IMG/VR virus record: IMGVR_UViG_3300020401_000018
Coordinates: 1-59,435 of that record
Strand: one strand, 5' to 3'
Length of the DNA stretch: 59,435 bases
Origin: a virus
Shown here one piece after another: positions 3,747-52,670 of this stretch (the first letter of the stretch is position 1; each line of letters begins with the position of its first letter). The position numbers and the translations under genes were made by a program. The notes under the pieces are model-generated. The model had not been told where the DNA came from. It made no database searches and saw nothing but the letters and a program-made list of their open reading frames with translations.

Positions 3747-3937
3747 AAGAAGCTATAAATACACTATGGGGTGCACCCGATAAAGGCATTGCAGGTGAGC
3801 CAGATCCAGAAGATTTAACGGTAGACAATGCCTATAAAACTAGATGGATATGGTATCACACTTTTATGGCTCTAGAGTTATTGATTATTATAGTGTTATT
3901 AGCAGGTATTTTAGTTACTATGGCAGTAAAATTATAA
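3734..3937 (+). CDS. Small single-span membrane protein
   Basis: 67 residues if started at GTG 3734 (TTG 3725 is an alternative); no ATG is available in this frame before the conserved part. A hydrophilic N-terminal half is followed by a hydrophobic helix at about residues 43-64 rich in Leu, Ile and Val. It overlaps the end of the metallophosphoesterase and precedes the lysis-like cluster, so an accessory lysis or membrane role is possible. Function unknown. Confidence 0.6.
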   Translation: MGKIKEAINTLWGAPDKGIAGEPDPEDLTVDNAYKTRWIWYHTFMALELLIIIVLLAGILVTMAVKL

Positions 3938-41375: not shown

Positions 41376-41399
41376 TAGGATCTCCAATTATTTTTTTAG

Positions 41400-41429
41400 A
41401 TTATAGCATAAATGTAGGTTGCAATGCAA
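41400..41429 (-). promoter_or_regulatory. Late-block promoter before terS (minus strand)
   Basis: TTGCAT (41429-41424), 18-bp spacer, TATAAT (41405-41400) with an extended TG upstream (TGCTATAAT). Predicted +1 near 41393, leader about 18 nt. Its -35 lies inside a 15-bp dyad (41417-41431), a likely operator. Confidence 0.75.
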
Positions 41430-41472
41430 CCCTGGTTAGTTTATAATTAACTTGTATCATGCAAGTGATACA
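41417..41472. promoter_or_regulatory. Cluster of dyads at the divergent junction (operator candidates)
   Basis: GGTTGC-AAT-GCAACC (41417-41431) overlaps the terS -35; TGTATCA-6nt-TGATACA (41453-41472) follows; CTTGTA (41451-41456) can also pair with TACAAG (41480-41485). These symmetrical sites are where a repressor or activator of late genes would bind. Confidence 0.5.
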
Positions 41473-41830
41473 TCTCCTGTACAAGGGGAGGACTCCACAA
41501 GCGTACATAACACACACCACACTCTCTCTCACATTACGCTTCCTCCCCTTTCTCTCCACACAAAGGGGGCACGCCCGACCTTTTAAAAAAAAGTTCAAAA
41601 TTTGCTAAAATTTTTTGAGACGCATATAGTATAGTACTAGCTGTGCGTTTTTTTGGGTGGGGTATTTTTATTTTACCCCCACCCCCCAGACCCCCTGCCA
41701 GTTTAGAATGATTCTAAACTAGAGCTTGGTCAGGGTTGCCAGACCTATGAGAACAAAAGGTGAACGAATTAAGGCAAGCAGGACGCTGGAACGTAAGGAA
41801 TTGCCTGCCAAAATGGCAGTGAATAGTGTA
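41473..41830. other. Noncoding control region with long dyads
   Basis: No convincing gene in this stretch. It holds a C+T-rich run (41500-41560), a GGGGGCAC octamer (41565-41572), two A/T runs, a hairpin GGGTGGGGTA/TACCCCCACCC (41655-41684) lacking a U-tract on either strand, a perfect inverted repeat of 10-bp arms AGTTTAGAAT/ATTCTAAACT around one base (41700-41720), and CTGCCA-AAA-TGGCAG (41805-41819). A 36-codon frame at 41747-41857 overlaps the next promoter and has no good ribosome binding site. Confidence 0.55.
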
Positions 41831-41858
41831 TTGACAGGTCTGAAAAAATCTGTATAAT
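41831..41858 (+). promoter_or_regulatory. Main early promoter
   Basis: Perfect TTGACA (41831-41836), 16-bp spacer, TATAAT (41853-41858). Predicted +1 at 41865, exactly at the first base of an 8-bp stem that closes the downstream RNA. It would drive the whole early block. Confidence 0.85.
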
Positions 41859-41864
41859 GTGAGG

Positions 41865-41945
41865 TGTTCAAGACCTAGTTATTCCTTGTTGAAAACGGGT
41901 CAGATCGTTGCCAACTTGGCAAGAATTAGTGCTTGAACATTTTTT
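41865..41945 (+). ncRNA. About 80-nt structured RNA or leader with intrinsic terminator
   Basis: TGTTCAAG (41865-41872) pairs with CTTGAACA (41932-41939), followed at once by T6 (41940-41945). Inside: GACC (41873 region) with GGTC (about 41898-41901), CTTGT with ACGGG closing a UGAAA loop, and TTGCC/GGCAA (41908-41922). A promoter places +1 on the first stem base. It could be a free small RNA or a regulated terminator in the leader of the first early gene at 41984. No match to a riboswitch class I know. Confidence 0.6.
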
Positions 41946-41983
41946 AAATGTGTGCATAATGTGTGTCAGAAAGTGAGGTTGTT

Positions 41984-42262
41984 ATGCGATCAAGTCAAGT
42001 GTGGAACAGAGTCAATCTGTTTACGGATCGAGGTGATGTCAAGGGTATGCCCAATCATTTCGACCATCAAACTGGTGAATGGGTCAAGTTGCCCAAACCA
42101 AACAAGTCGGAGGGCTACTGGAGAAGCCAAAAAGATATGTACCAAAATTGGAACTATCGTACCGCCTATCAGAAAAGCCTTCTGAAAGCTATGGGCAAGG
42201 CTCGAGGTAAGAACAGAAAAATGCTCATCAATGAGCTAAAAAGACAAGGGGTACAAGTATGA
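41984..42262 (+). CDS. Hypothetical early protein, 92 aa
   Basis: First gene of the early block; ATG 41984 has GAGG 5 nt upstream (an in-frame reading from 41963 lacks one). Basic, Asn/Lys/Arg-rich, with NRVNLFTDRGDVKGMPNHFD and a GKARGKNRKMLINELKRQG helix. Small basic early proteins often attack host transcription; no evidence here beyond position. ATGA overlap with the next gene. Confidence 0.7.
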   Translation: MRSSQVWNRVNLFTDRGDVKGMPNHFDHQTGEWVKLPKPNKSEGYWRSQKDMYQNWNYRTAYQKSLLKAMGKARGKNRKMLINELKRQGVQV

Positions 42263-42617: not shown

Positions 42618-42618
42618 C

Positions 42619-42647
42619 TTGACAGAAAGCACGATATACTGTATGTG
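42619..42647 (+). promoter_or_regulatory. Weak promoter candidate before the amidoligase gene
   Basis: TTGACA at 42619-42624 is perfect, but 17 bp downstream there is only TATGTG (42642-42647); TATACT lies too close. It may be a weak or activator-dependent promoter. Confidence 0.3.
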
Positions 42648-42702
42648 TGTCGTGTTTCCTATCAAGTCGGTAGGGTTAATTAAATAAATAAAAGAGGTGT
42701 TT

Positions 42703-46995: not shown

Positions 46996-47096
46996 CAAAC
47001 GGAGATCCTAATTTATTTGTTATTGCTATCATCATGGGAGTGACCATGTCAGCTTTGTTGTGTATTGATCCTGTGGCTAGGGTAATAGGACTATGA
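46992..47096 (+). CDS. 34-aa membrane peptide
   Basis: ATGA overlaps at both ends place it firmly in the operon. Residues 8-26 are hydrophobic (LFVIAIIMGVTMSALLCI), so it should insert in the membrane. Unknown role. Confidence 0.6.
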   Translation: MTNGDPNLFVIAIIMGVTMSALLCIDPVARVIGL

Positions 47097-47674
47097 GAGA
47101 ATTTTTACTTCCAGAATCAAGTGGCATGCATGCATGGTATATTGCTGATAGCTTGTGTGATGAGATCATACACTATTTTGAAAAGTCAGAGATGAAAGAA
47201 CGAGGGGTATGTGGTAAGATAGAATATAAACCTGATGTAAAAGATTCCACAGATGTCCCATTAAATCCTAACAGATTTTTATACGAAAGATATACTGAAG
47301 AATTAAATCGTGGCTTGGGTGAGTACATGAATAAATTTAATTTATTACATACCGTTGGTAAGTTTGATGATAGCAGAGAAAATACTTTAATACAAAAGTA
47401 TTATCCTAATCAAGGCTTTCATAAAATGCATTGTGAGCAAAGTCACATACACCCTTGGCGATTAGTTGTTTTCATGACATACTTAAATAATGTACCTAGA
47501 GGCGGCACTAGATTCCGTCATCAGGGTATAGACTTGCCTTGTGAAAAAGGTTTGACAGTGCTTTGGCCTGCTGGATATACACATGCTCATGCAGGTATAA
47601 CCAATTCAAATGGTTCAGCAGGTATTACGGAAACAAAATACATTGTAACAGGCTGGCTATCATATGTCGAATAA
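47093..47674 (+). CDS. 2OG-Fe(II) oxygenase (2 of 6), prolyl-4-hydroxylase-like
   Basis: 193 residues. QKYYPNQGFHKMHCEQ gives iron ligands His113 and Glu115 (HxE in place of the common HxD), LVVFMTYLNNVPRGGTRF the core strands, GLTVLWPAGYTHAHAG the distal His164, and Lys182 in TKYIVTGWLSY would bind 2-oxoglutarate. Similar oxygenases occur in cyanophages. Target unknown. Followed by the GGCT-like gene with an 11-nt overlap. Confidence 0.85.
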   Translation: MREFLLPESSGMHAWYIADSLCDEIIHYFEKSEMKERGVCGKIEYKPDVKDSTDVPLNPNRFLYERYTEELNRGLGEYMNKFNLLHTVGKFDDSRENTLIQKYYPNQGFHKMHCEQSHIHPWRLVVFMTYLNNVPRGGTRFRHQGIDLPCEKGLTVLWPAGYTHAHAGITNSNGSAGITETKYIVTGWLSYVE

Positions 47675-49677: not shown

Positions 49678-49824
49678 ATGGCAAAGAAATGGAAATCATA
49701 TTCTGCTCACGAAGCAGGACCAAAGAAAAGAACAAGTATAGGTAATAGTATACGAAGTAAGCCAAAGAATAAACATAAGCGACGTAGTTATAAAAAATAT
49801 AAAGGGCAAGGAAAACGAAGATGA
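49678..49824 (+). CDS. 48-aa very basic protein
   Basis: Lys/Arg-rich throughout; contains EAGPKKRTSIGNSIRSKPKN, a family seen repeatedly in marine phages. Likely nucleic-acid binding. Starts one base after the previous stop; ATGA overlap with the following oxygenase. Confidence 0.7.
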   Translation: MAKKWKSYSAHEAGPKKRTSIGNSIRSKPKNKHKRRSYKKYKGQGKRR

Positions 49825-50399
49825 CACAAAAAGAAATACAAGAAGGAATTACAGAGACAGTAGGAACATTCCACCCATTTGTTCCTAATTATGGATACCA
49901 CCAATGGAAACTAAAAGGTGAAAGGGATAAATATCTAGCTGACTATTTAATGCTAAGACACAATCAAGGTAGGTTTATTTCCAATGATTATTCAACACCG
50001 CTGAGTGAGGACTTGCGAATAGATGCTGAACACCCTGATGTGTCGTCAGCCGTAGAAGAAATAATGTCACATATAAAAACTGTTAATCCTAAATTAAAAC
50101 TAATGACTAATCAGTTTGGGCAACCAGAGATATGGGGTCAAGTAAATATGAAAGGCGGATCAACTGCCATGCATAAGCATGACGATTGTTTTGCGTTTGT
50201 GTATTATGTTAATGCCCCCGTTGATGGAGGTATGCTTAAGTTTTACATTAACTATGATACAATGTCTCATGTTTGTACTACAGAGCCTGTATCTAAATGT
50301 TTATTGTTTTTCCCTGGTTGGGTTCCGCATTTTACTATGCGAAATCAATCTGACTCACCAAGGATAGTTCTTTCTGGTAACGTAATATTTGGAGATTAA
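49821..50399 (+). CDS. 2OG-Fe(II) oxygenase-like protein (3 of 6)
   Basis: 192 residues. STAMHKHDDCFAFVYYVN gives likely ligands His120 and Asp122, LLFFPGWVPHFTMRN the distal His170, and PRIVLSGNV Arg181 for 2-oxoglutarate. The WGQVNMKGGSTAMHKH context resembles a small group of uncharacterised phage and bacterial oxygenases. Target unknown. Confidence 0.75.
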   Translation: MTQKEIQEGITETVGTFHPFVPNYGYHQWKLKGERDKYLADYLMLRHNQGRFISNDYSTPLSEDLRIDAEHPDVSSAVEEIMSHIKTVNPKLKLMTNQFGQPEIWGQVNMKGGSTAMHKHDDCFAFVYYVNAPVDGGMLKFYINYDTMSHVCTTEPVSKCLLFFPGWVPHFTMRNQSDSPRIVLSGNVIFGD

Positions 50400-50400
50400 A

Positions 50401-51087
50401 ATGACTCAACAATCAAAGCAACTGTTCTGGAAATTTTCTAATGCTTTCACTAAAGAGTTGAGAGATCTTGTGATTAAAGATTTAGACAATGATAATCTTA
50501 GATCAGCAGAAACTTATCAAAGAGATTTGCAACAGGACGTACATAAACATGGCGTAGAAAAGAACATACGAGATGCGAGCACTACAACTTTAGATAACAA
50601 AGATATAAATGATCATATATCTAACATGATGACTATTGCAAATAAACGAGCAGGCTGGGATTTTGATATTGCTGTGAATGAGAAGATGCAATTTATAAAA
50701 TATAAACCAGGAGGACATTTCCGTCCTCATACTGATACAAGTTTTCAGGGACCAAGTGCAACATTTCAATGGAAAGATGATGCACCCAATGAAGGATTTA
50801 AGGTTATACAAATAGCAGATGCATATTTGTTAGGCAATGTAAGAAAGATTAGTTCTACACTTCTGTTAAATGATAATTTTTCTGGAGGTGGTATGTCTCT
50901 TTATTACATAGCCGTGCAGGATAAAGAAAGTTCAAACTGGACCTTGGGCATTGAAGAAGTTCCTTTAGATTTAAAAGCTGGTGATTTAATTTTCTTTCCG
51001 TCTGGAGTATGGCATGGTATAAAGCCTGTAACAAATGGGACACGATATTCTTTAGTAACTTGGTTCGGAGGGCCACCAATAAAATGA
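50401..51087 (+). CDS. 2OG-Fe(II) oxygenase (4 of 6), PKHD-type
   Basis: 228 residues from ATG 50401 (GGAG 7 nt upstream). MQFIKYKPGGHFRPHTDT supplies His110 and Asp112; SSTLLLNDNFSGGGMSLYY the core; LKAGDLIFFPSGVWHGIKPV His205; and TRYSLVTWFGG Arg215. This is the PKHD-type hydroxylase pattern (as in PiuC). An insert of about 25 residues (115-140) follows the HxD. ATGA overlap with the nuclease gene. Confidence 0.88.
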   Translation: MTQQSKQLFWKFSNAFTKELRDLVIKDLDNDNLRSAETYQRDLQQDVHKHGVEKNIRDASTTTLDNKDINDHISNMMTIANKRAGWDFDIAVNEKMQFIKYKPGGHFRPHTDTSFQGPSATFQWKDDAPNEGFKVIQIADAYLLGNVRKISSTLLLNDNFSGGGMSLYYIAVQDKESSNWTLGIEEVPLDLKAGDLIFFPSGVWHGIKPVTNGTRYSLVTWFGGPPIK

Positions 51088-52115: not shown

Positions 52116-52670
52116 ATGAGTATTAATATTATAGACGATTTTATATCTGGTGTGGATCAGACTAGATTGGAACAAGCCATCTTAACAGATGAGTCTATTC
52201 CTTGGAACTACAGGGCTAGTCCTAATCACAATCTAGATTCAACTAACAATGGAGATTTTGTTCATAGGGTTTTTGCTTTTGATATTTCTAATTCGTTTTA
52301 TCATATCAATCCTTATATGTTAGATGTTATGAGTCCTTTGATGGTTCGCCTTGGATCGGATTACTTGAGACAAATCAAGATTAATATATATCCAAGATCA
52401 GATACTTTAATGGAACATGCTCCGCATGTAGATAAACTTGATTTTCAGAATAATAATACGTTGCCGTGGCAAGGAGAACAGGAGTACAGCTTGATATATT
52501 ATGTAAATAACAATGATGGATACACTAAATTTTATCCTGATAATGAAGACCCAGTTGCTGTAGAAAGTAAGAGGGGCAGAATAGTTTATACAGATGTTCC
52601 AACTGTACACAATAGCACTACTTGCACTAATGCAAATGTAAGATGTACAATTAATTTTAACTTTAGATAG
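52116..52670 (+). CDS. 2OG-Fe(II) oxygenase (5 of 6)
   Basis: 184 residues. MEHAPHVDKLDF gives His104 and Asp106, YSLIYYVNNNDGYTKFY the core, VPTVHNSTTCTNANVRCTINF His165 and Arg176. Compact form without extra domains. First gene behind the 52076 promoter and followed 8 bp later by the Sak4-like ATPase, so it is made with the replication proteins; a DNA or replisome target is possible but not shown. Confidence 0.8.
   Translation: MSINIIDDFISGVDQTRLEQAILTDESIPWNYRASPNHNLDSTNNGDFVHRVFAFDISNSFYHINPYMLDVMSPLMVRLGSDYLRQIKINIYPRSDTLMEHAPHVDKLDFQNNNTLPWQGEQEYSLIYYVNNNDGYTKFYPDNEDPVAVESKRGRIVYTDVPTVHNSTTCTNANVRCTINFNFR

Follow-up and report, generated by a model that had tools for sequence, protein, structure and literature searches.

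A predicted folded leader between two tandem promoter-like modules ahead of the early genes of a marine phage

The marine phage DNA analysed here (the window, 59,435 nt in all) carries at 41865-41945 a segment that the original prediction described as an RNA of about 80 nt with its own promoter, an end-to-end stem and a terminal U-run. The feature is real. It represents the opening part of a duplicated promoter array and is not clearly an RNA gene in its own right. Our preferred reading, to which we give about an even chance, is that the element fills the gap between two tandem early promoter modules and encodes a conserved folded leader of the upstream promoter (P1), with a weak, partial terminator embedded in the downstream promoter (P2). 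Four kinds of sequence evidence point to it: the module duplication, the conservation of the stem arms and U6 in the relative L082, the predicted fold, and the occurrence of the T-run in the promoters of relatives that lack the stem.

Genomic setting

The terminase, portal and other late-type genes of the window lie on the minus strand below 41.4 kb, and the replication genes lie on the plus strand after 42 kb. Flanked by the small terminase gene and the first early ORF, the interval 41388-41983 looks like a control region. The first early ORF (41984-42262, plus strand) encodes a conserved 92-aa protein of no known family, and its AlphaFold model is unusable (mean pLDDT 52). No integrase family was prominent among the window proteins scanned, which were a subset of the ORFs. 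BLASTN of the region against annotated phages gave 0 matches; a terminase search across bacterial genomes found no relative. The element marks where early transcription would be controlled in this marine phage group, which lacks close relatives in the annotated phage collection.

The P1 promoter and the end-to-end stem

P1, the promoter of the original prediction (41831-41858, plus strand), reads TTGACA-N16-TATAAT and has 12 of 12 sigma-70 consensus bases. Its start site, predicted with an uncertainty of about 2 bases, falls near 41865, and the initial transcribed region would be the reported 80-nt RNA (41865-41945, plus strand). The predicted stem followed by six U was borne out: the 5' arm TGTTCAAG (41865-41872) is perfectly complementary over 8 bp to the 3' arm CTTGAACA (41932-41939), and TTTTTT follows directly at 41940-41945. 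The RNA has a minimum free energy of -26.9 kcal/mol (z -4.4), and 0 of 200 shuffles were equally stable. Outer-stem pair probabilities are 0.76-1.0 in the window and L082 alike; an inner helix pairs CUAGUU (41875-41880) with AAUUAG (41924-41929) at probabilities of 0.7-1.0. Once the outer arms are removed, the z score shrinks to -2.3 in the window and -0.7 in L082, so the outer stem is the main source of the fold signal. The inner part of the RNA folds differently in the two genomes.

Perfectly paired 8-bp arms that lie 20-80 nt from each other, with T6 directly adjoining, occur once in the window against a shuffle mean of 0.3 (both strands). The chance that the start octamer complements the 3' arm is about 2e-5 per register, for a feature chosen post hoc.

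A duplicated promoter module

A second promoter-like site, missed by the original prediction, overlaps the 3' arm and the U-run. This putative P2 (41933-41960, plus strand) reads TTGAAC-N16-CATAAT; only 9 of its 12 bases match the consensus, which tells against the tandem-promoter reading. Each promoter is preceded by a palindrome, a candidate operator: O1 (TGCCA-AAA-TGGCA, 41806-41818, plus strand) upstream of P1, present also in L082, L003 and L004, and O2 (TGCCA-ACT-TGGCA, 41909-41921, plus strand) upstream of P2 and inside the RNA. They are the only TGCCA-N3-TGGCA palindromes in the window. A hairpin of TGCCA with TGGCA within the RNA fold was considered and rejected; its pair probability is about 0 in the window and up to 0.1 in L082, so these repeats are better read as a DNA site.

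The stretch 41806-41960 thereby resolves into two tandem copies of one module, TGCCA-N3-TGGCA followed by 11-12 bp, a -35, 16 bp and a -10, in the same orientation. A pattern for the module (TGCCA-N3-TGGCA, 9-14 nt, TTGA, 18-20 nt, ATAAT) matched exactly twice in the window (41806-41858 and 41909-41960) and 0 times in 100 shuffles; L082 also has two matches, at the same location. The P1 and P2 modules are homologous by alignment, with scores of 19.5 in the window (maximum of 1000 shuffles, 15.5) and 26 in L082 (maximum of 1000 shuffles, 15). As a consequence of the duplication, the 3' arm contains the P2 -35 (41933-41938) and the T6 sits in the P2 spacer. A reading of promoter, hairpin and U-run can thus conceal a second promoter.

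The start-to-start spacing of O1 and O2 is 103 bp in both the window and L082, with the P1 module and the RNA each differing by 1 base in length between them; in these two genomes the spacing would be close to ten helical turns. Across all viral contigs the module pattern gave 31 matches, leader-like only in L003, L004/L109 and the contig of L082; the remainder look like chance or coding sequence. A further 93 scattered matches in bacterial genomes were taken as chance, one of them (L134) having been inspected.

Conservation in close and distant relatives

L082, from a 60-kb contig, is the sole relative that spans the entire element. The original prediction had named conservation of the stem as a check, and the comparison is favourable: over both arm regions (16 + 16 nt) plus U6 the two genomes agree at 38 of 38 positions, while nearby sequence diverges (identity of 7/16 across the P1 spacer, 3/6 for the discriminator and 15/31 in the stretch directly 5' of O1). 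Unlike the 3' side, which P2 also constrains, the 5' arm lies outside the P2 constraint, and it is identical in four phages (window, L082, L003 and L004). On this evidence the stem is probably real. The outer arms are invariant across relatives, with one full-length relative, and no covariation is visible. Searches with DNA patterns taken from the RNA matched only L003 and the contig of L082.

Two observations concern the ends and alleles of these contigs. L003 and L004 stop at nearly one base, within the RNA. Just after O1 (41819-41830), the window and L082 have GTGAATAG, and L003 and L004 have ACGATA(C/G)C; this allele swap runs across relatedness, L003 and L004 being the closest relatives of the window and L082, respectively.

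More distant relatives (L006/L007/L061, L010, L013, L018, L022, L090 and L092) were found via the terminase or the leader pattern; a palindrome pattern search gave 10 matches. All the relatives named have a single early promoter, which in L013 and L022 reads GACATTTTTTTCAATGTGTGCATAATG and includes the same ACATTTTTT as the T-run of the window. When aligned to the L013 promoter, the window P2 scores 25 (shuffle maximum 17). In 5 of 6 relatives checked, any stem ending at the T-run is at most 5 bp long, the exception being L010, with an interrupted T-run and a 7-bp match. The T-run is best regarded as older promoter DNA, since these relatives have the same run in a P2-like promoter that lacks the stem.

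Leaders of the distant relatives contain two small hairpins (13 and 25 nt) with three pairs changed on both sides, a covariation score reached by 14 of 500 shuffles, and share ACCTAGTT with the window RNA. CAAG occurs near the leader 5' end in several relatives, and CTTG just before the promoter T-run. Tandem duplication of an ancestral promoter-plus-leader, if it happened, would have placed the copy 1 leader (CAAG) upstream of the copy 2 promoter (CTTG). Short complementarity would then exist immediately and could extend to 8 bp.

Proposed mechanism

Host RNA polymerase would start at P1 near 41865. The first 8 nt of the leader would pair with nt 68-75, together with the inner CUAGUU/AAUUAG helix; the outer 3' arm would double as the P2 -35 region, and U6 would lie within the P2 spacer. 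P1 transcription would therefore run into a weak terminator-like signal within P2, where a fraction of the P1 transcripts may stop as an RNA of about 80 nt; the others would continue into the early operon carrying a folded 5' end. P2 has a palindrome copy to itself and would start about 17 nt before the first early gene, independently of the stem. We infer both start sites, the activity of P2, a palindrome-binding regulator and partial termination.

The original prediction also proposed that the stem might control the whole early block. Since P2 would start 3' of the U-run, just before the first early ORF, and read into it, a terminator at this position should not gate the block; the stem is unlikely to act as a master switch for the early genes while P2 works.

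Termination and alternative explanations

The element has the stable stem and adjoining U-run of an intrinsic terminator (8-bp stem, U6). Its terminator score is -3.0 in the window and -9.3 in L082, short of the usual threshold of d > 0, on a standard formula designed for short loops, so that scores are a rough guide. The window score is the highest on the plus strand, still below zero, against +6.1 and +4.1 for two hairpins of the minus strand. Partial termination would be a fair reading of the stem and U6, and a free RNA of about 80 nt is possible as a by-product. Rfam 15, searched at gathering and permissive thresholds, gave no credible family for the RNA.

These results bear on the idea of a dedicated small-RNA gene, in which transcription from P1 would stop at an efficient intrinsic terminator (41940-41945) and release a free RNA of about 80 nt that acts in trans on host or phage targets. 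The consensus promoter, the stem flush with the predicted start, the U6 and the conserved arms would all suit such a gene, which we nevertheless consider unlikely: the stem has 3 G-C pairs of 8 and encloses 59 nt, the score is below zero and lower again in L082, no Rfam family was found, and the 3' arm and T-run are otherwise explained as P2. What stands of the original prediction is a P1 leader with a structured, conserved 5' end; the step from promoter plus terminator to free RNA is not supported, given that the 3' arm and U6 coincide with the P2 -35 and spacer and that the score is sub-threshold. A bolder variant, tentative and somewhat unlikely, is that a terminator evolved in the -35 and spacer of the duplicated promoter, such that the upstream copy would make a small RNA and stop before the downstream -10, with the palindromes 103 bp apart coupling both outputs.

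Instead of ending transcription, the leader might be a structure at the 5' terminus of the early mRNA that shields the message from decay or modifies the polymerase in the manner of put (antitermination), with stem-less termination playing no part. Relatives without a stem-linked U-run do keep structured leaders at the start site, with the two hairpins, the doubly changed pairs and the shared motif described above. Their second hairpin, however, is at the same time a palindrome in the DNA, and in the window and L013 this palindrome lies outside the leader. The symmetric changes may therefore reflect a DNA site, and the window fold is one rod, unlike put; we find this reading improbable. Little credence is likewise given to the absence of any RNA role, the inverted repeat being a by-product of duplicated promoter and operator DNA. 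Most of 41909-41960 is under DNA-level constraint from O2 and from the -35 and spacer of P2, and the lack of visible covariation agrees with this, but it leaves unexplained the invariance of the first eight transcribed bases and their perfect complementarity to the P2 -35 region.

Other elements of the control and early regions

The alphaproteobacterial LexA box is of the type GTTC-N7-GTTC (PMC3323433). A GAAC-N7-GAAC box of this alphaproteobacterial LexA type lies at 41751-41765 of the window, and such boxes are present in the control regions of all 15 distinct relatives compared (L006, L013, L022, L033, L034, L037, L040, L041, L050, L053, L062, L067, L074, L075 and L081). There are 29 in the 450-nt control stretches (4.3 per kb) against 2 elsewhere in the loci (0.018 per kb), an enrichment of about 240-fold across the phage group. 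Host SOS or a phage repressor could possibly control the early region via these boxes.

The palindrome TTTAGAATGATTCTAAA (41702-41718) is upstream of P1 in the window and inside the early leader in relatives (L006, L010, L013, L018, L022, L090 and L092); it resembles the alphaproteobacterial Irr (iron) box. A block at 41590-41662, TTTGCTAAAATTTTTT...TATAGTATA...TTTTTTTGGGTGGGG, is promoter-like and then has a T-run and a G-run; it is kept in most of the distant relatives, its final part being pyrimidines instead in L040 and L041, and could be a replication or packaging element. The block at 41460-41575, GTCTCCTGTA...GGGGAGGA...CCTCCCC...GGGGGCAC, adjoins the small terminase gene; distant relatives conserve it, and it is a candidate packaging site.

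Further downstream, a second long hairpin, CTTGACAGAAAGCACGA...TCGTGTTTCCTATCAAG, occurs at 42618-42666, before the gene at 42697. In its L082 counterpart (~3861-3909) pairing is kept, with some pairs changed on both sides, as judged by eye. The early region also contains several 2OG-Fe(II) oxygenase-like genes (47093-47674, 49821-50399, 50389-51087 and 52116-52670).

Comparison with known systems

Phages are known to carry sigma-70 early promoters in tandem, with duplicated operators. The window resembles them in that two predicted host-type promoters follow one another ahead of the early genes and have palindromes at similar spacing; it differs in that the downstream -35 and spacer also form the 3' arm and U-run of the stem in the upstream transcript.

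Phage-encoded small RNAs (reviewed in PMC12197685) are, like the predicted RNA here, short structured transcripts with promoters of their own; the predicted RNA differs in that its 3' end would coincide with another promoter. HK022 put RNA consists of two stem-loops (PMC9378689). Like put, the element would be a structured RNA of about 70 nt directly after an early phage promoter, and in relatives of the window phage a pair of neighbouring hairpins lies at that place. Unlike put, the window RNA is one long rod, two stem-loops directly 3' of the early promoter being found in relatives only, where they are short (13 and 25 nt).

Intrinsic terminators and leader attenuators share with the window a stem directly followed by six U; they differ from it in that the window stem is an A-U-rich 8-bp helix closing about 59 nt, with a sub-threshold score and a promoter overlap. 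One DNA stretch apparently serving both as promoter core and as RNA stem with U-run makes this a compact case.
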